DNA of 64,000 bases from positions 382,311 to 446,310 of the forward strand of contig SWDS01000002.1 of NCBI GenBank assembly GCA_005116745.1, in the 5' to 3' direction. Every line of letters starts with the position of its first letter. The stretch's first letter is position 1. Both the position numbers and the translations under genes were made by a program. Positions 14,801 through 44,128 of the stretch are shown here, piece by piece. Origin of the DNA: Nitrospira sp. GTDB lineage: Bacteria > Nitrospirota > Nitrospiria > Nitrospirales > Nitrospiraceae. Under the pieces are notes generated by a model, which did not search any database, had not been told where the DNA came from, and saw only the letters and a program-made list of their open reading frames with translations.

Positions 14801-17800
14801 AGGTTGGTGGAATCCACATCAGCCACCAGCGCATTGCCGCCCTGCTCGATGACCACCGCCCCGTCGCCTTCGCTATAACTCAGGCTGTCGCCACTCAAGC
14901 TCGTGATTGTCGGGGCATCGTTCACCGCTGTCACGGTAATCTGTTTCGACGCAGTGAGAGACGTGCCGCCGTCGCCATCCGTCAAGACCGCCTCAACCGT
15001 GCGGGTTGCAGTAGACGGCGCATCGCCGGCCACCCAGAAGCGGATATTCGCCATCACCGCACCGACGACGCTCGCATCGGCATTGGCATTGAAGGTCACG
15101 ACAAACGGGGCGGCGCCAATACCACCGGACTGCGTCCCGATTAAGGTGCCTCCGTAGTAGACATTGGTCCCACTGACGCCAATTTGGCCTGCGCTCATCC
15201 CGGTATTGAGCAGCTCGACTCGATCATCCACGCTTGGGTTGACGCTGATCGTGATGGTCAGCGTCCCGGTATCAAAATTTGAGGAGTCCAGGTCGCTGAT
15301 GGTCGGGAGGGCATCGATCATCACCGCCAGCGCGCCTTCGGTGAAGTTCTTATCTCCCTCTCCAAAGGTCAGGACCGGCGCATCGTTGGTACCCTGGACA
15401 TAGACCAACTTATTTTGTGGCGTCGCGGTGCCCCCATCGCCGTCGGTCAGGCCGATCGTCAATGTGCGCGTCGCGGTGGACGGATTGTCGCTCACGTTGT
15501 TGAATTGAATACTGCGATAGACTTCCTGAACCGCCGTGGGCATCGCACTGGCATTGAACGTGATGACCAATGAATCCGACCCGCTGGTCCCGCCGCTCAC
15601 AGTGCCGATCACCGTCCCTTCATAGGTCACGTTGCTCCCGGAGACCCCAACCTGGCCTGGGCCAGTGCCGAAGTTCCCCACCATCAATCGGTCATCGGCG
15701 GTACCGTTGGCAGAGATCGAGACAGTCAGCACGCCCCCATCGAAGTTCGCCGAATCCACATCGACAATGGTGCCCGTCGCATCGATCAGCTGCGCAAGCC
15801 CGCCTTCCACGAAGGTCACATCCGGCGCCACAGGCGTGATCACCGGCGCATCGTTTGTGGCGATGATCGTCACGGTAGTGCTGCCGGTCGCCGTGAGCGC
15901 CCCACCGCTGCCTTGCGTACCGCTGTTGCCATCGTTAAACGTCCAATCAACCTGGACGGTAGCAGGCGGCGCATCGCTGGTATTGTGGTAGGTGATTTGC
16001 TGCATCGCCGAGTTCACCAGCGCCTGCGTCGCGTTGCTGTTAAACGTCAGCTCCAGCGTGCCGGCGCCGCTGACATAGGTACCGATGGTGATGCCGCTGA
16101 CATTGACGTTGCCGCCGAACAAGGACAACGTGCCGGCGCCGGAGTAGAAGACGTCTTGCGCATCGGCGCCGCCATTGCGGGTCAGCGTGAGCGTGGCGCC
16201 GTTGAAGTTGTTGGCCGCCGACAGTTCAGCGTCAAAAATGGTGACGTCGGCATCCAGCACGACCGCCGCGCCGCCTTCGGTATAGGTCGGCGTGCCGTTC
16301 AAATTGCTGAAGACCGGTTGGTCGTTATTGGCCGTCGTCAGATTGACGGTGCCAGTACCCGTGTTGCTCGTTCCGCCGTCGCCATCAGTAACCACGACTG
16401 AGATCGTGCGCACACCCAACGTTGGTGTATCCGACGTCGTGGTATAGGTAATGGACTGGTAGACTGCCTGCACCTGCGCCGCTTGCGCGTTGGCATTGAA
16501 ACTCACCGTCAACGGCGTGCCGCCGGTGCCGCCCGCCCATGTACCCACCGTGACTCCGCTCACCAACACGTTTGAACCAGACAGTGACACACCACCAACA
16601 GCTAACAGCGCCAGCCTGTCAGTCGACTCACCACCGGCGCTGATGGTGGCCGTGAGTGTTCCTCCGTTAAAATCAGCACTGTCCGAGTCTGTGACGGTGA
16701 CCACGCCAAAGAATGGATTGCCCCCACTGTCTTCCCCTGCACCGACCGCTCCTCCGTTCGTCAGCACCGGCGCATCGTTCACCGCCGTCACGGTCACCGT
16801 CGTGTCGTAGTTGGCGCTGGTTCCGCCGTCGCCATCGGTGAGCACATAGCGCACTGTTCGTGCCCCAGTCGTGGGCGCTGCGGTATCCGTGTTCTCATAG
16901 GTGATGTTCCGCATCAGCGCCGTCACCGATGTAGGCGTGGCATTACTGTTCAGCGTGATAACGAGATCGCTCCCGCTACTGCCACCGGTGAACGTTCCAA
17001 TCGTCACGCCTTGGTAGGTGATGGTACTGCCGCTCACCCCGATCTGCCCGGCCCCAGTGCCTTGATTCCGAATGCTCAGCACATCTTCAGCACTGTCGCC
17101 GCCCACTGGAATGGAGACGGTCAAGGTCCCGGTGTTGAAGTCAGTGCTATCCACGTCGCCGACCGTGACATTGCCCCCTTGCTCGATCACCACCGCCCCG
17201 GCCCCTTCGCTATACGCCAGGCTATCGCCGCTCAAATTGGTGATCGTCGGTGCGTCGTTGACCGCCGTCACGGTGATGTCCGCCCATGCCGTTGACAGAT
17301 CAGACGCACCAAGATCATCGACCGAGATGTAGGAGAATCCGGTGCTCCCGTTCCAGTTCGACGTCGGCACGAAGTACAGCATCAGCGCGCCCGATGTGGC
17401 CGCATAGTTGGTCGCGATGGCAGCGGGAGTCGTGAGGCCAGCATCGAGATACAAGGTGCCATTCGCTGGCAGGCTGAAGAGCCGGAAGTCGCTGATGGTG
17501 CCATCGACATCGGTGGCGCTCAGCGTGACCGATATCGACGCCGCATCTTCAGCACCGCTGGCGCTTACATCGGCGGTTTCTGGTCTGTCGTTCACGCCGC
17601 TGACCGTCACCGTTGTATCGTAATTGGCACTGATCCCGCCGTCCCCATCGGTGAGCACATAGCGGACGGTTCGGGCGCCGGTCGTGGGCGCATTGGTGTC
17701 GGTGTTCTCGTAGGTGATGTGGTGCACCAGCGCCGTTACTGCGGTCGGCGTCGCGCTGGCGTTGAGCGTGATGACCAGGTTGCTCCCGCCGCTGCCACCG

Positions 17801-20800
17801 GCAAACGTCCCGATGGTCACCCCTCCATAGGTAACGTTACTGCCGCTCACGCCGATCTGCCCCGCCCCCGTCCCCTGGTTGCGGATGCTCAACACGTCTT
17901 CGGCACTGTCCCCTCCCACCGGGATCGAGACGGTGAGGGTGCCGGTATCGAGGTTGGCGCTGTCCACATCCGCTACCAGCGCGTTGCCGCTCTGCTCAAT
18001 GACCACGGCCCCGTCGCCTTCGCTATAGCTCAGGCTGTCGCCAGAGAGATTCGTGATGGTCGGCGCGTCGTTGGTGGCGATGATCGTCACGGTCGTACTG
18101 CCGGTGGCTTGCAAGGCCCCGCCCGTGCCCTGACTGCCGCTGTTGCTATCGTTGAAGGTCCAGGTGATCTGTGCGCTGGCAGGCGGCGTGTCGCTGCTAT
18201 TGCTGTAGGCGATCTGCTGCATCGCCTGATTGACCAGCGTGTTCGTGGCGTTGCTGTTGAAGGTGAATTGCAACGCGCCACCGCTATTCGTGTAGGTGCC
18301 GATGGTGGTACCGCTCACCACGACATTGCCGCCACTCAAACTCAACGTGCCGGTGGCGCTGAAGACGTCTTCGGCGTTGGCGCCGCCGTTCCGCGTTAAC
18401 GTGAGCGTGGCGCCGCTGAAATTATTGGCGGTGGAGAGTTCGGCATCGAAGATCTGCACGTTAGCGTCCAGTACCACTGCAACCCCGCCTTCGGTAAACG
18501 TCGGCGTGCCATCAAGCGTGTTGGTGAGAGTGGCACCAAACTGGCTGTCCAACGTGCCGTCACTGTTCAACCGGGCGGCGGCGAAATCCCAGTTGCCGCT
18601 GTTCGTGCGCCCGCCGATCACAATCTTGCCATCGGGCTGGATGACGACACCCGTCGCGATGTCAGTGCCGGTGCCCATCGCGACGGTGACCTTGCCGGTC
18701 CCGCCAAAGCTCGTATCCAGTGCGCCACTGCTGTTATAGCGCACCACCGCGAAGTCGGTGGTGCTGGCCAGGCCATAGCCAGCCACGACGATCTTGCCGT
18801 CGGACTGCACGGTCAGAGCATTGGCCCCAGCCCCCCCGCCCCCAACGCCAGTCGTCACCTTGCCGGTGCCGTTGAAGCTCGTGTCGAGCGTCCCGTCGGC
18901 GTTGTAACGCACCACCAGAAAATTGTTATTGGTGTAGCCCGACACGAGGATCTTGCCGTCGCTCTGCACCACGACGCCGGTTGCGCGATCGTTCAGTCCG
19001 GCAATGTCGGTGCTCACCTTGCCGGTGCCGTTGAAACTTGTGTCGAGCGTCCCGTCGGCGTTGTAACGCACCACCACCAGGTCTTCGGAGGCGCCGACCG
19101 TATAGCCCGTCACTACGATCTTGCCGTCGGTTTGCACCGCCACGGCGCTGGCCACGTCCGCGCCGGCTCCCACAGCGGTCGTGAGCATGCCCGTCCCATT
19201 GAAGGTGGTATCCAGCGTGCCGTCGCTGTTGTAGCGCACCAGCGCCACGTCGTCATTGGCGCCGTTGTTCGACGAACCGGCGACGACGATCTTGCCGTCT
19301 GGCTGGACCATGAGGGCATAGGCCCGGTCGGCGCCCGCCGCTACCGAGGTGGTGATCTTGCCGTCGCCGCTGAACGTGGTGTCCAGCGTGCCGTCGCTGT
19401 TGTAGCGCACCACCTGGAAGTCGTTGGTCGACCCGTAGCCCGCCAGCAGGATCTTACCATCGCTTTGAACGGTGATGGCCTGGGCCTGGTCGCTACCGGC
19501 GCTGATATCGGTCGTAATTTTTCCCGTCCCACCGCCGAAGGTGGTGTCGAGTGCTCCGCTGGTAGTGAAGCGTGCCACCGCGAACATGTCTGTACCAGAG
19601 ACGCTGGCGTAACCCCCCACGAGCAGCTTGCCGTCAGGCTGGATGGCAACGCCATTTCCGTAATCAACTCCACTGGAAAAGTCGGTGATGGTCGTGCCGG
19701 TGCCGCCATCAAAGCTCGGCGCGTCATTCTGCGCCGTCACCGTCACCGTCGTGTCATAGTTGGCGCTGATGCCGCCATCGCCGTCAGTGAGGACATAGCG
19801 GACCGTGCGGGCACCGGTCGTTGGCGCAGTGGTGTCAGTGTTCTCATAGGTGATGTTCTGAACCAGCGCCGTCACCGCCGTGGGCGTCGCGCTGGCGTTG
19901 AGCGTGATGACGAGACTGTTCCCGCTGCTGCCGCCAGTGAAGGTGCCGATGGTCACGCCAGCATAGGTCACGCTTGACCCACTCACGCCGATCTGACCCG
20001 CGCCGGTGCCTTGGTTCCGGATACTCAGCACGTCTTCCGCGCTGTCGCCTCCGGACGGGATGGACACGGTGAGGGTCCCGGTATCCAAATTGGTCGAATC
20101 CACATCCGCCACCAGCGCGTTGCCGCTCTGCTCAACCACCACAGGCCCGTCGCCTTCGCTGTAGCTCAGGCTGTCACCGCTCAGGTTCGTAATCGTCGGG
20201 GCATCGTTCACCGCAGTGACGGTAAGCAGGATAAATTGGCTGATTGTATTGGCCCCACTGTTGGTCGTCCCGCCTGAGTCATAAACATTAAACTGAAAGG
20301 CTGTGACCCCGCTGGCATTGGCCGTTGGCTGAAACTGCATGCCTTGGATCTCGGCCAGCGTGTATGAGGACAAGGTCACCAGCGTGGTGCCATCAGCCAA
20401 GTAGACATTGCCAATGGTGCCCGACGGCAGGGCCGTCACCGCGTAGGTGAGGGTCTGCCCGCTCTCATCGGCCCCGCCAGCCGGACTGTAGGTCACACTG
20501 CCCAAGCCCAGAGATACCAGACCCGCGTCTTCCGATACGGTCAGATTGCTGACCGTGCCGGTGGTCCGAATCGGCGCATCGTTGACGGCGGTCACGGTGA
20601 TTGCCACGGTATCCACATCCGTCCCGCTATTGCTGTCAGTACTGGTGACGGTGAGCGTGTCGGCCCCGGCAAAGTCCGTAGCCCCTTGATAGATGAGGCT
20701 CGCAAGAGTTGCATTGATGTCCGCTTGGCTGCCCGAGAGTGTCAGGGTATTCGTCCCGTTGCTGCCGCTGCTGATCGTCGCGCCACCGGACAGCGTGACA

Positions 20801-23800
20801 TTGAGCGTCCCGTTGCCCACTGCCACTTGCACCGTGCTCAGGTTGCCGTCCACGTCATTGACAGAAATCCCACTCAGCGCCAGGGGTGTGTCCTCATTGA
20901 CGCTCTGCGCGCCCGGAACTGTGTTGAGAGGCGCATCGTTCATCGCGGTCACGCTCACATCGATCGTGTCGGTCACACTCGAGAACGCCGTGGTCCCGCC
21001 GACACCATCGGTGTACTGGACCTGGACATTGTCGACGTACAGATGTCCGGACGCGCTGCTGGACGGTAAGTAGAAGTTGACCCATATACTCTGGCCGACA
21101 AAGGCACTCACGTCTTGAGTGAAGGTACCGGAACCGGTGTTCGATGTCGTCGAGAACGTTCCCAGGTCGGTGTAAGTGCTGCCGTCAAAGATCTGGATTT
21201 TGAAGGTATCGCCGCTGCCGAGTGAGTTCGTGAAGTCGAACGATAGCGTCGCAGACGTCGCACCGCTCAGATCGACTTGCCGACGAACATACTTGCCGCC
21301 GCCAACGGCCTGCAGATCCAGGCCTCCCCCGCTGACGAGAAACGCACCGCCGCTCGCACCGCCAGTTTCATTTTCGGTCCAGTCTGTCGACCAACTGGCG
21401 GTGCCATCGTTGTTACTGTAGGAGACTGTTGAAAACTGATCCCGAACGGTTTGACTCAAGACGGCCGTACCCCCGTTCGTGCCGCTGGTCTGGTCCCACG
21501 CGCAGAAGGTGATGGCATTGGCGCTCGTGCCGTTGTAGCTCGCACTGGGCTGGAAGTAGAGACGGGTGTTGGCATCGGCGGCCAGCAACCGGGCACTGGC
21601 TTCGCTCACCGCGCCGAGCGCCGTCCACGTCGTCCCCCCATTCGTCGTGTAGTACCAGGTCCCGTTCGTCTCGTCAGTCCCGGTGATCGCGATACCCTTC
21701 GCCGCCCCACTGTCCACGTCGGTGATCCCGCCCGTGAAGGCGCTGATCAGCGAACCAACGGCCCCGCTCGGCAGCCCTGCATCCTCCGCGACTGTCAAGG
21801 TCAACGCCGTGTCCCCCAGCACCGGCGCGTCGTTGACTGCATTCACCATGATGGCGACGCTATCGCTGGTTTCCGTTAGATCATTAGCCAAGGCCGAAAT
21901 TTCGTCGGATGAAAGGGCTCGGGTGTAGATGCGGACGTCGTCGACTTTGCCGTTGAGGTAATAGGTGTCGCCTGGATGTTGGCCAATGTAGGTTGTCGTG
22001 GCGCCTGTCCAGTAGATGCTGTTGGTGTTGGTAGCGCTTGCCGCCAATTGTCCGTCGATGAACAGGTTGTGAATATCGTTCGCGTCGTCAAACACGTACA
22101 TGACGTGATGCCAGCCGGTGCCTGCAATAAAGCGCTGGCTGGTGAGGTCTTGCCAGGATCCTGCTCCGGTTTGAATCGATCCTTTGATTCCATTGCCCGT
22201 TTCGTCGAGCGTGATGTGTACTCGGTCGTGCAATGAAATGAATTCCACTCGACCGCTCGACGAGTTGAGATTCACCCAACCCCCAATAGTGACATTCGTC
22301 GGATTGCCGAAGGTGCTGTTGATCGAAACCGAATCACCAGAGCCGTCGAGCGAAAGAACGGTGCCGCGAGTTGCATCGGAGACGGTGATTGCATTGCCGA
22401 CGAACGTACCGTTTTGCGAAACGCCAACACTTTGGTCGTCGGCGTTGCCACCTTCAAACGTGTAGAAGCCGTCCAGGTTGGCAGCCAACGCGGTTTCAAT
22501 CGACAGGTTCACGTTGCCGTTGAAGTTACTGACGGGCGTAAAGGTCAGGCCGTTCAGTGCTGCGTTAATGTCGCTTTCGGTGCCGACGATCACCATCCCG
22601 CCACTGCCGTTACTGCCACCGGGGAAAGTCAGGCCGGTTGTTTGCGAAAGCGTGAGCGTGCCGGAGGGTATCGACAAGCTGACCTGCATCAAGGCGTTCG
22701 TGGAACCGTTCTGATCCGTGACGGTAAGAGCGTTTCCGTTAGCCGCTGAGAACACCAGATTCGTGTCTTCGTTGGTCGATTGCGAACCAGGAACACCACT
22801 GGTTGGCTCGACAGAGACATCGTTCAGCGCAATTGTAAGGGCTTTATCATACGTGGCTCCGCTTCCGTCAGTGACACGAACAGTAACGGAGTGCGTCGCT
22901 TGCGATTCAAAGTTGAGCAGATTGCGATCGGCTACCGTGATCAATCCGCTATCACTATTGATGGAAAACGCACCGGCGACCGTTTGAGTGGTGATGCTGT
23001 ACGTAACAACGTTGGTCGTATCGAGAATATCGTTGGCATTCCACTGAACGATGTAGCCAAAACTGTTTCCTTCGCCTGCGTCGTACCATAGTCCATCGGT
23101 TGGATCCAATCGAGCAGCATCTTCTGCTCCACCCAGGTCGTTGGGCTGAGTGCTGAACCAATTACTATACTGGCCATCTACTCGATAACCGCTATTGGCA
23201 CCATTCCAGAACGTGTCATCAGCGCTCGTACCTTCATACCATCGCCAGGCACCTTCGCTGAGCGTGTCCGAAGCGCCGAGCCAATAATGTGTCGAGCCAC
23301 CTGAAATCTGGCTAAACAGGAACGCATTCTCTGCGGCGTTTTCGATTCGCACGATACTCCCGTTGACACCCGAGAGCGATGTTCCCGCAGCGTTCGACAG
23401 TGCAGTATTCCAGGTGGTTCCAGTGGAAACCAGCTTGTAGAACTTTCCCGTCTCCGCGCTGTATCGTAAATCCGGGTCGGCAGCCAACAATGCCGCAATT
23501 CGGGTTTCGCGTTCAGCATCGGTACCGTAGACCCTACCAACTACCGTTCCGTTGGCCGCATGTTCATCAACGGCGAGTGTTAGAACCGGCGCGTCGGCGA
23601 CAAAGCCAGCTCCGGTGGCATGTTGTACGGTCAGGTTATTGCCTGACACCGCGTCGGTGATCTCGCCACTGGTTGTCAGATCGTTGAAAGTCCAGTTCGC
23701 CAGCATGCCGCTGGTGTTGTCGGGCAGAGGCGCTCCGTAGGCGCTGGAAATTTCAGCTTGAGTACGCACATCATTGAAAATGCGAGCATCGTAGAGCGTT

Positions 23801-26064
23801 CCTTTAAAGGCCTGTGTCGACTGGAATCCGCCACCGACAGAGTCCTGATCATGACCCAATACTAAAGTCCCGCCGGTCGTCACCGTCGCTCCGGTTTGCA
23901 GGCCCGTTCCACCGGCGAAGGAGGTTCCGTTCAAGAAGAACTGCCACGCTCCGGTGGAATTATCCCAGGTCACTGTCAGCGTATTCTTCCCCGTTCCCAC
24001 CAAACTATTGAAGTTGATTGCACTGGTCGTCAAAGTCGTTCCTTTGACAAACAAGGTCAACGAGCCGTTGCTGGCCGTGCGCAGGCAGACTTCGTTTTCC
24101 TGTGTGCTGGTTGCATAGCTCAGGAACGTGTGTTCCACGTTGGCAGTAGAAAGGGAGAACTGAAACTCCAGCGTAAACTGAGTTCGACCTCCAAGGATCG
24201 CACCGCCATTGTCAGCTACCAGGTAGCTGTCATTGCCCGAGCCCTCGTTGAGAACAAGACCGCCCTCAGAAGTTGCTACGGCTTCGATTGCCGAAGGTGC
24301 ACTGTTGCCCGTCGACGTGACCGTCACAGTCGTATCGTAGTTCGCACTGGTGCCGCCATCGCCATCAGTGAGGACATAGCGCACGGTCCGCGCCCCCGTC
24401 GTGGGCGCAGTGGTGTCGGTGTTCTCATAAGTGATGTTCTGCACCAGCGCCGTCCCCGCTGTCGGCGTGGCACTGGTGTTCAGCGTGATGACCAGGTTGC
24501 TCCCGCCGCTGCCGCCCGTGAACGTGCCGATGGTGGTTCCGCCGTAGGTGATCGTGTTGCTACTCACACCAATCTGCCCAGCGCCGGTCCCCTGGTTGCG
24601 AATGCTGAGCACATCTTCCACGCTGTCACTGCCGGCAGTGATGCTGACCGTGAGAGTCCCCGTATCAAAGTTGGCGTTATCAGAGTCGGCGACCAGCGCG
24701 TTGCCACCTTGCTCGATCACCACCGCCCCATCGCCCTCGTTATAGGCCAGACTGTCACCGCTCAAGCTTGTGATGATCGGCGCGTCGTTGGTTTGGTAGC
24801 TGACCTGCACGTTGTCGACGTAGAGCCGCTCGCCCCCGCCGGTTCCTGTGACGATGAATTGAATTCTGGTGTTGGCACTCATGTATCCGGACAGGTCGAG
24901 GCTCGCTGCGCCACTTCCGATATTGGCGGCGCTGGAGAAGATTCCGCCACCCAAGGTGGAGTAGTTCGCACCTCCGTCGGTCGAGACGCGCACCTCGATG
25001 CGGTCGGCACCAAGGAGGGAGTTCGTGTAATCAAATGTCAGGGTGGCGCTTGTCGCTCCACTGAGGTTGACGCCACGGCTGATGGCGTTCCCGACGGTAT
25101 CGGTGTCGATACGGAGCTGTGAGGAGTTCACTCGCACATCCCCACCACTTGCGCCACCGCCGCCAGCATCCGTTTCAGACCAGCTAGTGGACCATGATTG
25201 TGTCCCGTTGTTATTGCTGTAGGAGTCCGCCGAGAACGTATCCCTCACGGTCTCGATCCCCAGAATTCCGGCCCAGTTCATTTGCGCGTCGTAGCCGACA
25301 GCTAGCGACGTCTCGATAACCCCAGTCTGGACTTCGAATTCCCAATTCCCCCCGAGAGAAATATGTCCGGTCTCGTCGGTGCTCGCCTGCACATCCGCAC
25401 CGGTCATTTCCGCCAGCAAGTTGACTGCGACCTGCCCAGTTTCCCCCTCGGCGAAGTCGCAGCCATAGACGAGGATGTCGGCCTGTTCCGAGAGCACTTG
25501 TTGGATCGTCGCGAGTTCGTCGACGTATTGGCCAGACATCGTGTCCACGTTGAGCGTGCCGGTACCGAGTTGCAACGTACCGGCATCGCCGTGCGAGATG
25601 ATGTGAATGGCATCGATCCCGGTCCGGCCTGCTAGGGCGCCAGCCATCTGCTCGACCCCGTCTTGCGCGCCGTTGAGCATGATCACTTCGATGTTGGGGT
25701 ACATCCCGTTCAGGAGTTCTCGGTAATTGGGCACGGTCGGATCTACGAAGACCACCTCTGTTGTGGACTCGCCAGGGTTATAGGTCGTAATGGCTTGAAG
25801 CAGTTCTGGCGACTCATTCTCTACCGCGGTTGGCTCGCCACTGTCTTCTGCAGACACAGCCGACTCGGCCTGCTCCTGTGCGACTTGTTCTTGATTGACT
25901 TCCGATGCCGTGGCCGTAGCTGCAGCATCAAACATGAGGCGAGATTCAAGGGAGAGAAGCGACAGCTTCGGTCGAGCCGCCCCTGGCGCCTTGGACGCCG
26001 GCTTGGGGGTGCTGCTCGGCTGAGGATTTGTCTGTTGCTGTGGCTTTTTCTTTCGCCAGAACAT
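11845..26064 (-). CDS. giant DUF4347 / LEPRxLL-like surface protein with lectin, LamG and cadherin-type repeats
   Basis: A 4739-residue protein. A basic N-terminus leads to a LEPRxLL-like motif ([12 protein letters not shown], residues 39-50). DUF4347 follows at about 102-258, with IISHGDAG and YGCDFAEG. Then come a ConA-like module (265-430), LamG-type modules (about 590-790 and 1200-1395) and a C-type-lectin-like domain (850-1012, with HYWLGASD and a WxxxQPND loop). Cadherin/VCBS-type repeats occupy most of the rest, with a delta-60 repeat array at about 2122-2512. Near the end are a Pro-rich linker (4500-4570), one membrane helix (about 4650-4675) and a basic tail. It is presumably a secreted or cell-surface adhesin for aggregation or polysaccharide binding. 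No type I secretion genes are in the window. Confidence 0.9.
13235..13520 (-). repeat. VCBS/cadherin-type module, near-identical copy A
   Basis: This stretch of the giant gene encodes a module running from [17 protein letters not shown] to [12 protein letters not shown]. It differs from copy B at 13805-14090 at only a small number of bases by eye. Such similarity within one gene indicates a recent internal duplication or gene conversion. Confidence 0.8.
13805..14090 (-). repeat. VCBS/cadherin-type module, near-identical copy B
   Basis: Second copy of the module at 13235-13520, separated by a different module containing [18 protein letters not shown]. The few differences cluster around the YSPNADWNG / YSPTADYNG loop and the flanks. 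Confidence 0.8.
14455..14915 (-). repeat. [13 protein letters not shown] module, one of five copies in the giant gene
   Basis: Module of about 155 residues beginning [16 protein letters not shown] and ending in a YDTTVTV strand. Other copies lie at about 16790-17255, 17590-18070, 19735-20210 and 24310-24780. One complete and one truncated copy lie in the separate remnant gene at 26.3-28.4 kb. Each carries [20 protein letters not shown] and a TGARTVR-x-VLTDGDGG core. Copies are similar at DNA level, so this array can recombine. Confidence 0.85.
18530..19700 (-). repeat. array of about seven delta-60-type repeats inside the giant gene
   Basis: Residues about 2122-2512 consist of roughly 55-60-residue units with the pattern VxxQxDGKIxVxGY, then an FxVxRYNxDGTLDTxFxGxGK segment. 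This is the delta-60 repeat pattern, probably forming a beta-propeller-like disc of about seven blades. It is inserted between cadherin-type modules and differs from them in sequence style. Confidence 0.8.
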
Positions 26065-36772: not shown

Positions 36773-37047
36773 AGCCTGAGCAGTGTGTCAGGTGTGGCTC
36801 ATGCATTTCAATCCTTCCTTGATCCTGGCTGACTCAGCTTCATAGCTTCATCGGTCGTTTGAGATACCTCATATGTGACCACAGAAAGACTCCAAGACCA
36901 TTCTCTTCTCTCAAAGCAATCCTCGCTGAAGAATCGGTCCCACAGTTCACGGTTGATGTCACGCTGGATATCCGTATGACCGGACTGGTACAAGATGGTG
37001 ATGATCTGGTGGTGGCTCCCCCGCCCCGAAGGAAATGTGGCGAGATG

Positions 37048-37767
37048 ATGTCAATCCTCAGAATGATCAGGATACGCACTCCTGTACCGCAAGATACCGC
37101 ATCGGAACGCACAAGGAGCACACAGCGCCTCGTGCGCCGCGCCTGCCTTGCGACGGCGTTACTGGTGACAATCACCATCGTAGCTCAGGGCGTATACGCC
37201 GCAGGCGAGCGCCAGACGAAGTTCACACGCATCTCGACGCAGTACATCGCGGCTTTGGGCACTCCAGATGCGACCTCGGGAAACGGCGCGCAATTGTGGG
37301 GTCTGTGGCCGCTGGACCCAGGTCCTCGAGGCGTGAAGCTGAGCCGATATCAATCACTAAAACTTTCCGGTGGCGTCGCCCCGGCGCGCTGGAAATTCAA
37401 CGAGACAGACTGGTGGCTTGAGGAACACGGCTTGATCATGGAGCAACCAACCATTCCACTCCCTCCAGGGAAATATGTGGTCACGGGCGCCCGCAAAGTG
37501 ACGGCTGTGCTGACGATTCATCCGGCCGACAGCCGCGGCGACAGGCGCTGGGAGCTCGATCAAGGCGCGACACTCTACGACGTGACCCACCTCGCCTGCC
37601 GTTCCGCGCGCTATATACCGGCGGCAGTGGGTAGTTCATGCTCGCCAGCTAATGCAAAGCAGGCGGCATTTCCAGTTGCGCCAGGAGGCGCGATGCCCCC
37701 AGTCGAGGGCTGCACGAAGCAAGACTATGCGGTGTTCATCGTGATCGGTATGGGCGTGGAAGACTGA
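37048..37767 (+). CDS. exported protein, intact member of a duplicated 3' module
   Basis: About 239 residues from the likely start at 37048. A basic N-terminus and hydrophobic core (ACLATALLVTITIVAQGVYA) form a signal peptide. The mature part contains WGLWPLDPGPRGVKL, WKFNETDWWLEEHG and a C-terminal Cys-containing stretch ending DYAVFIVIGMGVED. I recognise no family. Its last part is repeated twice downstream as decayed copies (38300-38545, 39421-39666). The frame stays open back to 36859, but that upstream part has no good ribosome site and reads as non-protein. The start is uncertain. Confidence 0.6.
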   Translation: MSILRMIRIRTPVPQDTASERTRSTQRLVRRACLATALLVTITIVAQGVYAAGERQTKFTRISTQYIAALGTPDATSGNGAQLWGLWPLDPGPRGVKLSRYQSLKLSGGVAPARWKFNETDWWLEEHGLIMEQPTIPLPPGKYVVTGARKVTAVLTIHPADSRGDRRWELDQGATLYDVTHLACRSARYIPAAVGSSCSPANAKQAAFPVAPGGAMPPVEGCTKQDYAVFIVIGMGVED

Positions 37768-37929
37768 ACCGTGGTGGCGCATCGACAGCTTGCGCGGCGA
37801 CCTCGACGAAGGATTCCTAGCTCATCTCCAACCTCTCTGTGACGAACCAGAAATAGCGAGTGCAAGGGATAGCTGATTCAACAACTGACACAATGATGTC
37901 ATAAAAATATTCCCGACCCCTTAATTATC

Positions 37930-38046
37930 TGACACAACCTGACAAATCATTGACAGATTCCTGTCTTCGCACCGTCAATTTTGACAACACTCCATGCTCA
38001 GTTTAACTACGTATGTATTGAATCCTTAAGATACTGACATCTGACA
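37930..38046 (+). promoter_or_regulatory. array of six TGACA boxes upstream of a sigma-54-type promoter
   Basis: TGACA occurs at 37930, 37940, 37951, 37982, 38035 and 38042, the first three at 10-11-base (helical-turn) spacing, and an inverted TGTC lies at 37962. The placement up to 120 bases upstream of the -24/-12 element suits binding of an enhancer-binding activator. This 343-base gap has no gene. Confidence 0.45.
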
Positions 38047-38049
38047 ATT

Positions 38050-38065
38050 TGGCGCAGCTCTTGCT
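38050..38065 (+). promoter_or_regulatory. sigma-54-type (-24/-12) promoter
   Basis: TTGGCGCAGCTCTTGCTT has GG at 38051-38052 and GC at 38063-38064, separated by exactly 10 bases, with matches across the consensus. Transcription would start near 38076, 35 bases before the zinc-ribbon gene, which has a GGAGGA ribosome site. Confidence 0.65.
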
Positions 38066-38110
38066 TCACATCGCTGATAGCAATGCGCCTAACCACCTGA
38101 GGAGGAATCA

Positions 38111-38284
38111 ATGAAATGTCCGAAGTGTACAGGGATGATGATGTTAGAGCGGTTCTCAGATTTCTTTCTGGTGTTCTATGCATGGAAATGCATCAACTGC
38201 GGGGCCATGATCGACCGTACCATTTCCAACAATCGCCGAAAGAGTCTGGCAGCCCGTGAGTCCCGGACCGTCGCCGCGCGGTAA
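38111..38284 (+). CDS. 57-residue zinc-ribbon protein
   Basis: A small protein opening MKCPKCTGMMML, with a second pair CINC at residues 27-30 and an aromatic-rich segment between them (FSDFFLVFYAWK). The tail is basic. The two CxxC knuckles indicate one zinc site; the basic tail suggests nucleic-acid or protein binding. The GGAGGAATCA-ATG start is near ideal. It lies behind a sigma-54-type promoter with TGACA boxes, so it is probably tightly regulated. Similar two-knuckle proteins are common in environmental Gram-negatives, with no known function that I can name. Confidence 0.75.
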   Translation: MKCPKCTGMMMLERFSDFFLVFYAWKCINCGAMIDRTISNNRRKSLAARESRTVAAR

Positions 38285-38299
38285 GAAGTTTCAGCAAAG

Positions 38300-38545
38300 G
38301 GGTCGGGACTCTTTATTTATTCTCGGTTGACCATGTAGCAACCCACCGGCCCACGCGCTAGACACCGGCGGCAGTGGGTAGTGCATGCTCACCGGCCGAC
38401 GCAAAGCAGGCTGCGTTTCGCGTTGCGCCTGGAGGAGCTATGCTTCAGGCCAAGGGCTGCACGAAGCATGACTATGCGGTGCTCATTGTGATCAGTATGG
38501 GCGTGGACAACTGAACCGCGGTGGCACGCCAACGACTTGCGCGGC
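38300..38545 (+). pseudogene. decayed 3' copy 1 of the exported-protein gene at 37.0 kb
   Basis: Begins with GGGTCGGGACTC and a TTATTCTCGGTTGACCATG stretch. It then matches the 3' end of the 37048-37767 gene (ACCGGCGGCAGTGGGTAG, then GGGCTGCACGAAGCA, then GACTATGCGGTG) up to about 20 bases past the stop. A segment equal to about 150 bases of the parent (37454-37603) is missing. The reading frame is lost. Confidence 0.75.
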
Positions 38546-38588
38546 GCGCTGCAATACAAGACTCCCGGTATATTCTATCCATCCGAAG

Positions 38589-38729
38589 CTACACGTCGCA
38601 TCCGCCGCACGGTTTGATCTGCCAGCGGATTCGCCACCGTCGAGGGTTGGTTCGAAGGAAACTGTCAGCCAGATTCGCGATGCTCCCGTCGGCAAAGTGC
38701 AGGGTCTCCACAACGAGCGAGCCGCTCAC
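38589..38729 (-). CDS. possible small ORF or gene remnant
   Basis: A frame of 46 codons on the minus strand (GTG 38729, TAG 38589-38591) reads as plausible protein (ETLHFADGSIANLADSFL, then RRWRIRWQIKPCGGC). No convincing ribosome site is present. It lies between the decayed copy 1 and the second small secreted-protein gene and may be a piece of a lost gene. Confidence 0.22.
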   Translation of the reverse strand: MSGSLVVETLHFADGSIANLADSFLRTNPRRWRIRWQIKPCGGCDV

Positions 38730-38848
38730 CTCGGTCTTTGCGAGTCATCCAAGGTTTGCTTTTTGTCCCTCAGGGATTACACAATAGAAAATATGTATTA
38801 ATCTCCGCCATCCCGGCCACTATCAACAATCAACAACGAGGTATTATC

Positions 38849-39265
38849 GTGAATATTCGACATGCCCTAGCGATCGTTATGGTACTAAGTGCCTTCGGCA
38901 ACATCGGCGATGTCCGAGCCGGCTATGATTCAGCCCCTTCCGGTGGCAGCGTAGATGGTTGTGACGGCGTATCGTTTTCCACGTTCCTGCCAAAGCCATA
39001 CTCACAAATAGACAACAATGTAGAAGTCGCGCCGCAATCGGCATTTTCGTTTGTGGCATCCAATTCGACGTTTCCCAAAACCATTACGGTGATGATCAAG
39101 GACGAAAACGTCCCGGTCACCGTGACGCCTCACTTCGGTGGATTTCTCGTCAGCGGCAAGATCCCCGCCTCGGCCAAAGGCACCTTCATCAGAGTTGCTA
39201 TTACGGGGAAAGGCCCCAGCCTCTGTGAGCGAGGCGACGGATGGCTCTTGAAAGTAGGAAAATGA
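38849..39265 (+). CDS. small secreted protein, paralogue of the one at 30.2 kb
   Basis: A 138-residue exported protein from the GTG at 38849: signal peptide ending DVRAGYD, then CDGVSFSTFLPKPY, VEVAPQSAFSFVASN, a strand region with DENVPVTVTPHFGGFLVSGK and the C-terminal CERGDGWLLKVGK. Its length, order of motifs and end match the protein at 30183. GTG is preferred because it starts the signal directly; the frame is open further upstream to 38738 but reads as non-protein. The upstream site ACGAGGT is weak. A perfect 13-bp hairpin follows 75 bases downstream. Confidence 0.78.
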   Translation: MNIRHALAIVMVLSAFGNIGDVRAGYDSAPSGGSVDGCDGVSFSTFLPKPYSQIDNNVEVAPQSAFSFVASNSTFPKTITVMIKDENVPVTVTPHFGGFLVSGKIPASAKGTFIRVAITGKGPSLCERGDGWLLKVGK

Positions 39266-39340
39266 TCGATGGCAGGATAGAGGTGGCTCCAGTTGGTTGG
39301 ACAGTGTAGGCCATTCCTAACCTGGCACCTGGTAGATTGC

Positions 39341-39369
39341 TGACGACACGGCGGTGCGCCGTGTCGTCA
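39341..39369. terminator. perfect 13-bp hairpin
   Basis: TGACGACACGGCG (39341-39353) pairs without mismatch with 39357-39369 around a GTG loop. No T-run follows on either strand. It may terminate the secreted-protein transcript, or mark the duplicated module that begins about 50 bases further on. Confidence 0.5.
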
Positions 39370-39420
39370 GAGTGTCATCTCCGCAATCTGAGAAGTTGAA
39401 TTAAGGTGGTCGAATAAAAT

Positions 39421-39666
39421 GGGTCGGGAGTCTTTCTTTATTCTCGGTTGACCATGGAGCAACCAACCGGCCCACGCGCGATACACCGGCGACGGTGGGT
39501 GGCTCGTGTTCGCTGGCCAACGCAAAGCAGACGGCGTTTCCCGTCACACTAGGAGTGTGTGATGCCTCCGGTCGAGGGCTGCACGAAACAAAACTATGCG
39601 GTGCTCATCGTGATCGGTATGGAAGTGAAGGGGTGAACCGCGGCGACGCACAGACGACTTGCGTGT
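39421..39666 (+). pseudogene. decayed 3' copy 2 of the exported-protein gene at 37.0 kb
   Basis: Second decayed copy, collinear with copy 1. It has the same upstream stretch (GGGTCGGGAGTC, then TTATTCTCGGTTGACCATG), the same internal deletion relative to the parent, and the same end (GGGCTGCACGAAACAAAAC, then GTGAACCGCGGCGACGCA). Sharing of the deletion shows that the two decayed copies descend from one another rather than independently from the intact gene. The 463-base gap before the NACHT gene holds only this copy and the hairpin. Confidence 0.75.
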
Positions 39667-39728: not shown

Positions 39729-42224
39729 CTATGAAGCGGCGCACGGTGAGCTTTTCTTCACAGTGTTACCCTCCGGAGGAAGAGCCGCAAAATATTCGAG
39801 GAGGCTTCGGTGGATGAACATGTAGCCACCACCGACCTTCTTGAGGAGGATAAGCTTGGCGCAGTGGTCCAGGAATGGAATGAAGCGAAAAGGTGTGGCC
39901 CCAGTCAGCCAGAGAACTAGTCGTAGTGCATAGTGTTTCAGCACGGCTGAACCACCACGGTTGAGCCCTAGTAACAGTCCAAAGAACAGGGGGAAGGTCA
40001 GCCAGTTATCTTTCACGTAAAGGGATAGCAAGCCAACTGGCCCAAAAATCAATAGGCCGATCGCTAGCGCTACCAGACCATTTTTCAAAGAAAATATAAT
40101 ACCTTGATTTGGAGAGGATTTGTTAGCCCTAACTGAATCGACGAGTCCAAAGAGCAACCCAGAGATCAGTCCGAAGAGCAGCCCAAACATCACTCCGGAG
40201 GATAACCAATAAACGAAACCGTCTCTCACCCCGTCAACCAACCTGGCAACCAGCCAGTATAGTTCCCCAAAGAGCCAACCGCTTATCAATCCTGTAATTG
40301 CCTTTGCTCTGAAACGCTTAGTTTGCCAACCCATTGTTTCAACAAGATGTATTTCCTTTAGTGATTGTATACCCGCACCAGCAAGGAGACCTCCAAGCGA
40401 CCCAATGACCAGTACGCTAGGTCTAAACTCAAATAGCCCGAAGAAGATCCCAATTACCAGACCAGTCACGGCGATATTCTTCCATGGCGATGCCCAGTGA
40501 CAACCGACTATGATGCTCGCCGCGAAGACCAGCCCATAAGCTAGTCCTGGAATCAGCACTTCGTACAACCCAAGACTCGATCCAAGATTCAGTATGACGA
40601 TTAGCCAGACTACGAGTAACCCGCTGCTCAAGGCCGCCACAGCTTCATAGGCGAACTGTTGTCCCGCTAAGCTGAGCCATTGAGGCTGGAGTGCTTCCAC
40701 CATGAAGACCGACTGCGACTGCTCCTTCATCTTTCGGGCCAACCACGAAAGCCAGCGAATGGCTTCATCCTGAGAAAAGCGACTCGTGATTGATTTCTTC
40801 CGTTGGAACATCCGCTCAACATAAAGCTGGAAGATGTGCTCTCGACGCGCTTGTGGTGAATCATCCTTGGGGCTCATCAGGGCTTTTCCATCAGCTCCCT
40901 CGCAGGCCAGGCTCATAACGCTCAACATCAACGGCGTCTGTGCCAGTTCCTGCAAGACAGGATCGTTGTTCATAACTTGTTGAAGGCCAGCCAATTGTGG
41001 ACCGCCAGCTGCCAGAAAGTTATTCACATCGTCAAGGCTAAGCGGCTCAAGGCAGACCGCACCGTTCATTTTGAGCTTCCTAGGGAGCCAGTGATACTCC
41101 ATCCAGCGACTACAGACCACCATCCCAGATGAGTTATGGGTCTCGATGAATGCATTGATGGCCGCGACGCAATCCGGTTGGATGGCAGGTTGAACTTCAT
41201 CCAATCCATCCAACAGCGGCACGAGATAGCCTTTCACCAGCCACGCTCTCGCGATCTTCACCGGAATGCGATACTTGGCTGACAGCTCAGCTGCGATCCA
41301 CTCCTCAAGAGACTGTTTCTTTTGCCAACTCGATAGATTCAGGACAATGGGGACTCGTTCTTTAGGGTCGTCTTTTGCTCTGTTGATCAGGACAGCCGCA
41401 AGTTCCAGCAGACTCGTCGTCTTCCCAGATCCTGGCTCTCCTAAGATGAGAAGAAGACCCGTCGCATCAAAGACGGTGTTGATGGTGTAATCTTGAGGGA
41501 GAACATCGCGGCAGCGACTCGGCAGGTCTACGAGATCACATTTCCAGGGAGGCCGTTCTACCGCCTCATCCATCGTGCGTTTGCCCAGCGAGATCAGCAC
41601 CTCATGGTAGAGCGACTGCCTGAGTACGCCATCGACCCAATATTCTTGCACCCGATCCCGGAGAATCCCGAGTTGTTCTTGCTGCCTTTGGTCCGGCGGG
41701 TTCGCGATAGGAGAATGTAACCGCTCCTCTGCATTGTCTTGACCCGGGTCCAATAAAACACTGGCCGAGGCCTTTTCCATCTCAGGGCCAGATTTCTTTC
41801 CTGCGATTCCGTTTATTAGCTGCTCATATGGATCTGGATGATTCTTTCGGAAATCCACCCAATGGAAGTTCTGGAGAAAGATAGGAAGCTCGGGCGTTCC
41901 AGTCGCCGACGACAAAATTACTGGAATGATAGGACAGGCTCGCTTGACAAATTGATTGAGGAAGGACCGTACTTCCATCTGCTGCCAAGGGCTGATACCA
42001 CTCTTCCCGACAAAAACCGCCGCGGCTTTAATGGTTTTTATCTGCTCTTCAAGAGCAACTTGCCATAGTTGCCCAGGCCGTATTTCCAGCTCGTCCAACC
42101 ATGGCTTGAGACCTCTGCGAGACAACTCGTCCGCAATCTGACGGATCTCGGCTTTGTCTTCGCTGTTGTGACAGAGGAAGACGTCAAAGTGTTCAGCGTT
42201 GGGATTGGGCTCGTTGTTGCTCAT
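39729..42224 (-). CDS. TIR-NACHT NTPase with polytopic membrane region (candidate anti-phage protein)
   Basis: An 831-residue protein. The N-terminal TIR domain (about 11-140) shows FDVFLCHNSEDK, the loop GLKPWLDELEIRPG and SPWQQMEV with a candidate catalytic Glu84. The NACHT-type NTPase has Walker A GEPGSGKTT (Lys268), Walker B LLDGLDEV (337-344) and a following sensor region. About 530-760 holds many hydrophobic segments rich in Gly, likely membrane helices. The C-terminus KKVGGGYMFIHRSLLEYFAA is a recurrent end of bacterial NACHT proteins. TIR domains often degrade NAD in immunity. It is a single gene with no obvious partner. Defence is inferred, not shown. Confidence 0.88.
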   Translation of the reverse strand: MSNNEPNPNAEHFDVFLCHNSEDKAEIRQIADELSRRGLKPWLDELEIRPGQLWQVALEEQIKTIKAAAVFVGKSGISPWQQMEVRSFLNQFVKRACPIIPVILSSATGTPELPIFLQNFHWVDFRKNHPDPYEQLINGIAGKKSGPEMEKASASVLLDPGQDNAEERLHSPIANPPDQRQQEQLGILRDRVQEYWVDGVLRQSLYHEVLISLGKRTMDEAVERPPWKCDLVDLPSRCRDVLPQDYTINTVFDATGLLLILGEPGSGKTTSLLELAAVLINRAKDDPKERVPIVLNLSSWQKKQSLEEWIAAELSAKYRIPVKIARAWLVKGYLVPLLDGLDEVQPAIQPDCVAAINAFIETHNSSGMVVCSRWMEYHWLPRKLKMNGAVCLEPLSLDDVNNFLAAGGPQLAGLQQVMNNDPVLQELAQTPLMLSVMSLACEGADGKALMSPKDDSPQARREHIFQLYVERMFQRKKSITSRFSQDEAIRWLSWLARKMKEQSQSVFMVEALQPQWLSLAGQQFAYEAVAALSSGLLVVWLIVILNLGSSLGLYEVLIPGLAYGLVFAASIIVGCHWASPWKNIAVTGLVIGIFFGLFEFRPSVLVIGSLGGLLAGAGIQSLKEIHLVETMGWQTKRFRAKAITGLISGWLFGELYWLVARLVDGVRDGFVYWLSSGVMFGLLFGLISGLLFGLVDSVRANKSSPNQGIIFSLKNGLVALAIGLLIFGPVGLLSLYVKDNWLTFPLFFGLLLGLNRGGSAVLKHYALRLVLWLTGATPFRFIPFLDHCAKLILLKKVGGGYMFIHRSLLEYFAALPPEGNTVKKSSPCAAS

Positions 42225-42389
42225 GCCTAAGCGGTCAGCAATTGAAGCTATCTAATTCACTTCAACCCATAAAACGCGGACATTCTACGTATTCTGGCCC
42301 AGTAGGTCTACTCGGGCGTGAAGAAAGAAACATCGGAGGTGTTGACTTGTTACCGTTAAAAATCGAGGCAGTTCAGCAGTGGCCGCCCT

Positions 42390-42605
42390 CTACAACACCT
42401 GCACGATAAAACACTTGAGATACCGTGTCTCCGGCATGCTGGCGAGGATGGGATGATCGGCGCTCTGGCCTCGTTGTTCGATCAATCGAATCTCTCGCTT
42501 GGCGTCGTGGGCTGCAAGGCGGATGCTCTTCCAGAGATCTTCTTCAGAGACAGGATGGGAGCAAGAGCTCGTGACCAGAAATCCTTCTGGCTTCAGCAGC
42601 TTCAA
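42390..42605 (-). pseudogene. 3' fragment duplicate of the rlmI-like gene
   Basis: This 216-base stretch encodes the last 71 residues of the methyltransferase at 42953-44128 (KLLKPEGFLVTSSCSHPVSEEDLW to the CFIVQVL end), with roughly nine in ten bases identical by eye. Similarity stops at about 42605. Without the PUA and SAM-binding parts it cannot be functional. It shows a partial tandem duplication around the Phd-like gene. Confidence 0.85.
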
Positions 42606-42691
42606 ATTAGAGAGATATGATCAAACCAGGAGATCCGTGCCACACACCGCTCGACAGGTCATGAGGGGCTGGCGTCCCTCGGAATCCATAG

Positions 42692-42892
42692 TTAAGATTT
42701 CTTTTTCAATCCTAATGTTGCGGCAACGAGAGCCAGTGGTCTTCCCTGTCGATTTTTGGGATCTGCCTTGGCTCTGCGCAGGTCGCGAAAATCATGATAG
42801 TCCTCAACCTCTTCTTGCAATCGAAGAAAATCCTTGTGCGGCATGACGGCAAATTCTTTCTTGCCGTGTTTTTCGATGATTTGCGCTTTCAT
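42692..42892 (-). CDS. Phd/YefM-like antitoxin (orphan)
   Basis: A small protein of 66 residues (72 if the ATG at 42910 is used): MKAQIIEKHGKKEFAVMPHKDFLRLQEEVEDY is the Phd/YefM-type N-terminus, followed by a basic helical tail ending TLGLKKKS. Such antitoxins neutralise Doc, YoeB or other toxins and repress their operon. No toxin gene lies next to it; downstream is the rlmI fragment. An orphan antitoxin or the survivor of a broken pair is likely. The start is uncertain between 42910 and 42892. Confidence 0.65.
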   Translation of the reverse strand: MKAQIIEKHGKKEFAVMPHKDFLRLQEEVEDYHDFRDLRRAKADPKNRQGRPLALVAATLGLKKKS

Positions 42893-42952
42893 AGGTCTAC
42901 CAGTAGCCATTCTTCCGATGGAGAGTTTGATAAATTCAGAGAGGGTCGTCCT

Positions 42953-44128
42953 CTACAACACCTGCACAATAAAACACTTCAGATACCGCGTCTCTGGCAT
43001 GCTGGCGAGGATCGGATGGTCGGCGCTTTGGCCTCGTTGTTCAATGAGCCGAATCTCTCGCTTGGCGTCGCGGGCTGCGAGGCGGATGCTCTTCCAAAGA
43101 TCCTCTTCAGAGACAGGATGGGAACAGGAGCTCGTGACCAAAAATCCTTCTGGCTTCAGCAGCTTCAAGCCCAAGAGGTTAACATCCTTATACCCAGTCA
43201 ATGCCCCAGCTAAGGCCTGTTGGCTCCGAGCGAAGGCCGGAGGATCGAGGATCACCAGATCATAGCGTCTCCCCGCCTTCACCAGCTTGCGCATTTCCTC
43301 GAACGCATCAGCTTGGCGATAGGTACAGCGATCCGCGACCTTGTTCATCGTGGCCTGTGTTCGGGCCATGGCCAGTGTGTCCAGACTGACATCGAGGCCT
43401 TCTACCGATACGGCTCCAGCGAGCGCGGCATGAATGCCGAACGCGCCGGTGTGGCAAAACACTTCCAGCACCTCGGCGCCTGCCGCCAGCTTGGCCATTG
43501 CCAACCGATTTTCCCGTTGATCGCAAAACCAGCCGGTCTTCTGCCCCTTCTCGACATCCACGAGAAACTTTGCTGCCCCTTCGTGAATCTCCACTTGCGT
43601 CGAGCCGCTACCGAAGAGAAACCTCCGTTCGAGAGGCAGCCCTTCGAGTTGGCGGCTCTTGGCCTCATTCCGTAGATAGACCCTCGTCAGATTCAATTCC
43701 TTCATCAGTATGTCGGCTAAGAGTTCCTTCCGGCTATCCATGCCAAACGACAAGCACTGCATGACCAGCAGCTGATCGTACCGATCCACGATCAACCCCG
43801 GCAGTCGATCACCTTCAGCGTAAATGAGCCGATAGGCATTGGACTGGGCGACCACTCGCTGTCGAAGACGGATCGCCTGTTGGATTCGCCCCCGCCAAAA
43901 CGCCTCGTCGATGGGTTCATCCTCGAATGTCAGGAGACGGACACGGATTTTTGAAGCAGGGTTATAGAGACCACGGCCGTAGAATTGCCCGTCGGGTGTC
44001 AGGACATCGACCAGATCCCCAGCGGCTGCTTGACCGACGAGCGGTCCGACATGACCGGCAAAGAGCCAGAGCGGTCGCCCCTCCGGGATCCGTAGTGTCG
44101 TAAGGCGAACCTGGGCCATCGGTGTCAT
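42953..44128 (-). CDS. rlmI: class I SAM-dependent rRNA methyltransferase (RlmI-like)
   Basis: A 391-residue protein of the RlmI/RlmO family. It has an N-terminal PUA domain (GRPLWLFAGHVGPLVGQAAAGDLVDV) and a middle linker domain with AEGDRLPGLIVDRY. The Rossmann methyltransferase follows, with VLEVFCHTGAFGIHAA, motif IV DPPAFARSQ and the C-terminal SSCSHPVSEEDLW with a cysteine typical of m5C enzymes. RlmI methylates C1962 of 23S rRNA; the target here is inferred. A 3' fragment of the gene is duplicated downstream. The length agrees with the family. Confidence 0.88.
   Translation of the reverse strand: MTPMAQVRLTTLRIPEGRPLWLFAGHVGPLVGQAAAGDLVDVLTPDGQFYGRGLYNPASKIRVRLLTFEDEPIDEAFWRGRIQQAIRLRQRVVAQSNAYRLIYAEGDRLPGLIVDRYDQLLVMQCLSFGMDSRKELLADILMKELNLTRVYLRNEAKSRQLEGLPLERRFLFGSGSTQVEIHEGAAKFLVDVEKGQKTGWFCDQRENRLAMAKLAAGAEVLEVFCHTGAFGIHAALAGAVSVEGLDVSLDTLAMARTQATMNKVADRCTYRQADAFEEMRKLVKAGRRYDLVILDPPAFARSQQALAGALTGYKDVNLLGLKLLKPEGFLVTSSCSHPVSEEDLWKSIRLAARDAKREIRLIEQRGQSADHPILASMPETRYLKCFIVQVL

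Follow-up and report, generated by a model that had tools for sequence, protein, structure and literature searches.

Protection against phage by a single gene is proven for a soluble TIR-STAND-TPR protein of P4-like satellites (Rousset et al. 2022, PMC9122126), and a gene of Nitrospira sp. raises the question of what a large membrane-embedded region might do in a protein that shares the TIR domain and the NTPase. The gene lies in a stretch of 64,000 nucleotides (the window) from a genome of 3.86 Mb whose relatives are Nitrospira. An initial annotation, made from the sequence alone, had offered two possible roles for the membrane region, namely a depolarising effector acting in addition to NAD degradation, or membrane sensing of phage.

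An intact TIR domain and NACHT switch

The open reading frame comprises 831 codons without an internal stop, and its parts are listed in Table 1. Pfam TIR_2 matches residues 15-137 (E 6.9e-25; 88 bits against a cut-off of 28), phmmer aligned the domain with AbTIR and other TIRs, and its structural Z to the SPARTA TIR, SARM1, AbTir and TRR-2 was 12-14. E84, which is invariant across the eight TIR-bearing proteins aligned, is matched by phmmer to the W-x3-E Glu of AbTIR. The initial annotation had named a TIR lacking the NADase fold as a finding that would refute its proposal; since both the TIR fold and the conserved catalytic Glu are present, we infer that the domain is of the NADase type and predict that it hydrolyses NAD+. 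Most TIR-bearing relatives (L025:72-2696 (+), L024, L026, L028, and L039) carry roughly 100 additional residues that separate TIR from NACHT, with the pattern LRLxGNxDxFS...GSxRVFLELxxExADK; this stretch is absent from the window protein and has no Pfam match.

Pfam NACHT was found at residues 258-350 (E 8.4e-7; 29.4 bits against a cut-off of 26.7), and G262, P264, G265, G267, and K268 of Walker A are invariant in the family. The P-loop domain with Walker A and B, HD1, and a winged-helix domain (WHD), which define NACHT-clade STAND proteins, are all present, and the solved structures that best matched the AlphaFold2 (AF2) model were NOD2, NLRC4, NAIP5, and NLRP3. Thus, the TIR, the intact Walker A/B NTPase, and the membrane region of the initial annotation are all borne out (by Pfam, motifs, hydropathy, and AF2), and its residues 84 and 268 are indeed Glu and Lys. 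PADLOC and NCBIfam contained no full-length system model for the protein, only partial TIR or P-loop matches.

Table 1. Features of the TIR-NACHT-TM gene and of its surroundings, in window positions.
Feature	Position	Strand	Basis
TIR-NACHT-TM gene, 831 aa	39729..42224	-	intact ORF; Pfam TIR_2 and NACHT above cut-offs
TIR domain, residues 12-144, putative catalytic E84	41793..42191	-	Pfam, phmmer, structural Z 12-14
Pre-NACHT helix region, NACHT NTPase, and helical domain, residues 178-450	40875..41693	-	Pfam NACHT; alignment to NLRP3/NLRC4/NOD2; conservation across 81 aligned sequences
Walker A, GEPGSGKT (262-269), K268	41418..41441	-	family-invariant residues
Walker B, LLDGLDE (337-343)	41196..41216	-	
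WHD first half, residues 457-519	40668..40856	-	AF2 helices 457-475 and 485-501; aligned with soluble NACHTs
Inserted block, eight predicted TM helices, residues 520-773	39906..40667	-	AF2; gap in soluble NACHTs; low conservation; higher dN/dS
WHD second half (helix, wing hairpin, FIHRSLLEYFA), residues 781-815	39780..39884	-	AF2 and alignment
rlmI-like methyltransferase gene, fixed slot flank	42953..44128	-	match in 59/59 genus genomes searched
rlmI 3'-end copy, 91%, 225 bp, between rlmI and the TIR-NACHT-TM gene	42381..42605	-	blastn
72-codon ORF between the two rlmI ends	42692..42910	-	Pfam PF02604, E 0.0039, below cut-off
3'-part repeat of the 36859-37767 gene	39417..39663	+	blastn, 79%

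The C-terminal element of the protein, GGGYMFIHRSLLEYFA, carries the WHD-closing YxFxHxxxxEYxA motif and aligns with YSFSHLTFQEYFA and comparable termini of soluble NACHTs. The FIHRSLLEYFA end, noted earlier as conserved, stands opposite YxFxHxTFQEYFA of these soluble proteins and, judged by this alignment, is the ordinary NACHT WHD terminus, which the initial annotation had not noticed. Its conservation is strong: no segment of the protein exceeds 774-815 in mean information (3.35 bits), and VGGGYxFxH is invariant in 81 sequences, with the relatives partly selected by a KVGGGYxF pattern. The protein ends about 16 residues beyond the motif, and a C-terminal repeat domain or sensor is absent, that is, the tripartite layout of effector, NACHT, and C-terminal sensor is not found.

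Membrane helices predicted within the winged helix

In the AF2 model (81-row alignment; pLDDT 81.7), eight helices of transmembrane (TM) length span residues 520-545, 553-575, 580-597, 602-618, 635-664, 670-693, 707-736, and 743-773, a number within the "seven to ten" hydrophobic segments proposed at the outset, and a TM-only model agreed with them. Beyond the block, residues 781-814 form a helix, a beta hairpin, and the final helix. Hydropathy analysis gave five 19-residue segments of at least 1.6 KD, all within residues 520-780 and none within 1-519. Since composition shuffles gave a mean of 3.0 and a maximum of 8 such segments, the count of five alone is not significant, and the weight of the TM call lies in the clustering of the segments and in the hydrophobicity kept across family columns.

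Model residues 182-819 aligned with the NACHT of NLRP3 (7alv, 134-537) at Z 15.4 over 319 residues (4.8 A), and residues 180-825 with NLRC4 93-465 at Z 15.9. The NLR counterpart is a contiguous 370-430 residues, of which about 315-340 aligned; about 640 model residues were spanned with only about 320 aligned, so that the TM block can be accommodated as an insertion. For comparison with soluble proteins we used cyanobacterial soluble NACHTs, in which the P-loop lies 275-322 aa from the YxFxHxxFQEYxA motif with 0-1 hydrophobic segments between them, versus 492-586 aa and 5-10 hydrophobic segments up to the closing motif in the TM family, a distance longer by about 200-250 aa. In a joint MAFFT alignment the soluble NACHTs were nearly empty opposite residues 520-664 and 761-790 (unoccupied at 520-619 and 761-790) and placed about 40 linker residues opposite 665-760, resuming at the KVGGGYMFIHR wing. 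A global hhalign of the TM and soluble NACHT sets did not bridge the insertion, whereas MAFFT and the structural alignment did. Because the NLR alignment is a single discontinuous one, soluble NACHTs show a gap, and the P-loop-to-motif distance is longer, the TM helices are, according to the model, spliced inside the NACHT WHD rather than appended to the switch.

Two candidate comparators from the same genome were rejected, a C8 match that falls in a rho-like gene, and the product of G000:C10 (L151:1198-4122, -), which has no YxFxH...EYFA motif. The latter is a second TIR-STAND protein, apparently soluble and with C-terminal repeat-like sequence by eye, and its gene adjoins one that we annotated by eye as small-GTPase-like.

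With an even number of TM helices, both ends of the block are predicted to lie on one side. The loops 619-634 (TM4-TM5) and 694-706 (TM6-TM7) are predicted on the NACHT side, I625, E629, W633, and P705-N706-Q707-G708 are strongly conserved loop residues, and the predicted non-cytosolic loops have only 4-7 residues. In the last helix H764 is invariant and R768 nearly so. TM2 and TM3 are missing in most relatives (column occupancy 0.15 and 0.35), and the common family core thus has fewer helices than the window protein.

When searched alone, the TM block had no Foldseek match with E below 0.1, and its best VIA-align Z of 6.1 was under the level given as meaningful, with no convincing channel or transporter. 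Weak similarities concerned Tim22 and complex I subunits (Z about 6), the Tim17 profile (3/71 members, best E 0.0036), and the Romo1 profile (7/71 members, best E 1.2e-6). The TM5-TM8 half (residues 635-773; 39906-40322, -) weakly resembles glycine-rich bundles of the Tim17/Tim22 type; the Tim17/Romo1-like resemblance may perhaps just reflect a glycine-rich TM composition.

A family with exchangeable N-terminal domains

Two conserved peptide patterns, scanned against GTDB genomes, yielded 306 relatives; for the best 80 of these, 79 loci were fetched. The fetched loci were mostly cyanobacterial, the others coming from Chloroflexota, Pseudomonadota (Methylococcales and Nitrosomonas), Nitrospira, and ANME archaea. 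Of these 79 loci, 78 had an ORF carrying the C-terminal motif, and where a P-loop was in frame with it, 3-8 hydrophobic segments lay between the two. All 57 full-length members had a NACHT match, and their N-termini included Pkinase (11), TIR (7), cyclase (5), CHAT (4), and AAA_35 (4), with the TM insert retained across these swapped effectors. The cyanobacterial proteins share the NACHT, the TM insertion, and the KVGGGYxFxH terminus with the window protein but differ from it in their kinase, cyclase, CHAT, or AAA_35 N-termini and usually have fewer helices, TM2-TM3 being missing in most. The membrane region is thus exceptional among tested TIR-NLRs, as the initial annotation had supposed, but not peculiar to this gene, since a large TM-NACHT family exists in cyanobacteria and other phyla. 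XssQ, a STAND regulator with a helix-turn-helix, was not counted as a member.

In a NACHT/WHD tree, the TIR-bearing proteins of Nitrospira, Methylococcales, and Nitrosomonas formed one clade (SH-aLRT 100), and this joining of different phyla suggests horizontal transfer. The TIR label changed at least twice on the tree, the second case being a Ktedonobacteraceae protein. Relatives were present on 59 plasmid records; no relative was found in the phage collection, nor, by the patterns used, in IMG/VR.

A variable genomic slot

The gene is flanked by an rlmI-like gene, a name that is our own annotation, and by a small gene at 36859-37767. Between the flanking genes, the 3' part of this small gene occurs in two diverged copies, one at 38296-38541 and the other as in Table 1. 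Many genomes of the genus have fragments of the rlmI tail downstream of rlmI, and the DNA stretch of the short ORF between the rlmI ends, whose Phd/YefM similarity is weak, is likewise recurrent. The rlmI 3' end is a recurrent insertion point in the genus (42381-43168 and 37604-39663 in the window, and in other genomes), and the gene-end copies of rlmI and of the opposite flank gene pile up between variable cargo, as if duplicated or brought in with each insertion.

In the 11 genomes with both flanks on one contig, the interval measured about 2.5 to 14.6 kb and its contents varied: an nSTAND3 NTPase in G078 (L135:10274-11422, -), an FRG-domain protein matching PADLOC PDC-S15 in G080 (L139:11719-12579, -), a DNA methylase with a NotI-like enzyme and an integrase in G065 (L146:7274-10819, -), an HNH protein in G006, and a PemK-like toxin in G012. 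A TIR-NACHT-TM gene adjoins the same small gene in G018, where it is split into three frames, and in G031. Overall, the family was matched in 9 of 79 genomes of the genus, with several of the copies broken. The neighbourhood search for defence islands that the initial annotation had recommended yielded a variable rlmI-adjacent slot, which in other Nitrospira holds restriction-modification (R-M), nSTAND3, and FRG genes and which, from its gene content, looks like a defence slot. At the TIR-bearing loci of Methylococcales and Nitrosomonas the neighbours were housekeeping-like, as judged by eye.

Elsewhere in the window, a giant ORF (11845-26064, -; 4739 aa) has DUF4347, DUF5122 propeller repeats, and laminin-G, cadherin, and lectin domains, and its product is a probable surface or secreted protein. 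Its "minimal CRISPR polymerase" match was weak and likely spurious.

Uneven selection along the gene

Compared with the orthologue of Nitrospira sp. LK70, dN/dS was 0.09-0.11 for NACHT and the WHD first half, 0.03-0.05 for the WHD second half, 0.14-0.24 for TIR, and 0.31-0.84 for the TM block (about 0.15-0.18 for the whole gene), where ranges depend on the estimator and ratios are rough because dS is high and near saturation. Identity to this orthologue was 47% in the TM block versus 71-91% elsewhere, and a second Nitrospira orthologue gave a similar pattern of dN/dS where computable. The TM block is the fastest-evolving part of the protein, while TIR, NACHT, and the C-terminal WHD half are under purifying selection, which is strong for the latter two. 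A fast-evolving TM block can be where a sensor is expected; alternatively, it can reflect relaxed constraint, with hydrophobic swaps being tolerated.

Relation to known systems

The P4-satellite TIR-NLR resembles the window protein in being a single protein with an N-terminal TIR and a central STAND NTPase, for which NAD+ depletion following NTP-driven oligomerisation was proposed; it differs in its C-terminal TPRs, the likely sensor (PMC9122126), where the window protein has eight TM helices in the WHD and no C-terminal repeats. The bNACHT proteins, such as bNACHT25, likewise combine a bacterial NACHT switch with an N-terminal effector, but those described have nuclease or no recognised effectors and C-terminal NCH1 or SNaCT domains, unlike the window protein, and the word transmembrane is absent from the main text of the bNACHT25 paper (PMC12169576). 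The animal NLRs NLRP3, NLRC4, and NOD2 share the NBD-HD1-WHD core (315-340 alignable residues, Z 14-16, ending in the WHD), yet their winged helix is contiguous and without TM insertion, and they have C-terminal LRRs and other N-terminal domains.

The open papers that we searched contained no description of TM-bearing NACHTs or of a TM insertion in the winged helix. To our knowledge, KAP P-loop NTPases (Aravind et al. 2004) are the only precedent in which TM segments interrupt a P-loop NTPase module. These belong to a different NTPase clade and have a different insertion point. Each part of the protein is known, while a TIR output joined to TM helices in the NACHT WHD, as well as the size and modularity of the family, is undescribed in those open papers, which does not prove that no description exists. 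Because the TM insertion replaces a C-terminal sensor, we judge the protein to be a variant, and not a plain member, of the bacterial TIR-NLR and bNACHT proteins.

A proposed membrane-integral switch and its alternatives

We consider it somewhat better than an even bet (roughly 0.55) that the protein is a membrane-integral, NLR-like (STAND) switch with a TIR NADase as output and the TM block as a sensor or coupler in the WHD. At rest, the winged helix would keep ADP-bound NACHT closed. Infection would alter the state of the TM bundle, whether by perturbing the membrane, by injection, or through a membrane partner from phage or host, and since the bundle sits between the two halves of the winged helix, this change would move the winged helix, allow nucleotides to exchange, and permit oligomerisation within the membrane plane. 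The TIR domains would thereby be brought together, hydrolyse NAD+, and cause abortive infection. The TM block would take the role that LRR or TPR repeats have in soluble NLRs rather than that of a second effector. The defence logic of this switch is inferred for the window protein from the parallels with TIR-STAND-TPR (PMC9122126) and bNACHT proteins (PMC12169576), and near-membrane sensing also has a parallel, as the soluble STAND protein Avs5 collects at phage entry sites associated with the membrane (PMC12931631). A role in defence is plausible, and the anti-phage activity is presumed by analogy. We know of no member with this architecture that has been tested against phage.

Depolarisation, the other role initially proposed, would require that the activated TM bundle opens a pore while TIR drains NAD+. 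In known anti-phage systems, TM proteins are considered effectors of cell suicide (PMC9122126), and the glycine-rich block has its weak Romo1, Tim17, Tim22, and complex I similarities. However, it lies inside the switch domain, is kept with the non-toxic N-termini of kinases and cyclases, and matches no channel fold convincingly, so that we regard such a dual effector as improbable. Its location in the WHD, its retention with kinase, cyclase, and CHAT domains, and its fast evolution weaken the depolarisation proposal and favour sensing, coupling, or anchoring; a membrane-coupled sensor or anchor is the more likely role. That the block serves as an anchor only, with sensing left to a partner or to the pre-NACHT region, is consistent with non-cytosolic loops too short for an outside ligand domain, with the differing number of TM helices among members, and with the finding that Avs5 gathers at phage entry sites independently of its sensing function (PMC12931631). 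A single helix would suffice for anchoring, though, a position inside a moving domain would be unneeded, and conserved residues are found in both NACHT-side loops, which makes this reading quite unlikely.

The cyanobacterial kinase and cyclase fusions could mean general signalling and so speak against defence. NACHT-TM would then be a general sensor of membrane state or nutrients that drives cyanobacterial kinases and cyclases, with TIR as one signalling output. In line with this, kinase (11/57) and cyclase (5/57) fusions combined outnumber TIR (7/57) in the sample, four cyanobacterial genomes have 25-38 NACHT matches each, and the flanks in Nitrosomonas and Methylococcales resemble housekeeping loci by eye. 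On the other hand, TIR, CHAT, and effector-associated domains are typical parts of conflict systems (PMC7159879, PMC8195603), presence in Nitrospira is patchy with broken copies, and the slot is shared with R-M, nSTAND3, and FRG genes; we hold a general sensor to be rather unlikely, if worth keeping in mind. Finally, the copies in G018, G108, and G065 are frameshift-split or fragmented, some breaks being maybe assembly errors, as would be expected of a decaying remnant without function, but for the intact window copy, with its low whole-gene dN/dS against LK70, we give this hardly any credence.

Implications

Beyond this gene, we tentatively entertain a prokaryotic NLR-like family in which a polytopic membrane domain sits in the winged helix, the membrane itself thereby controlling nucleotide exchange and setting off the effector that each protein carries, as a membrane-gated resistosome. 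What the gate reads could, equally tentatively, be membrane potential, tension, or the phage entry event. Known NLR-type sensors read infection through soluble repeat domains; if the membrane-integral switch is correct, a WHD interrupted by TM helices would be a route to sensing infection at the membrane. One core with TIR, kinase, cyclase, or CHAT outputs would make this testable by output swaps, with the prediction that the TM block, and not the N-terminal effector, determines what is sensed.
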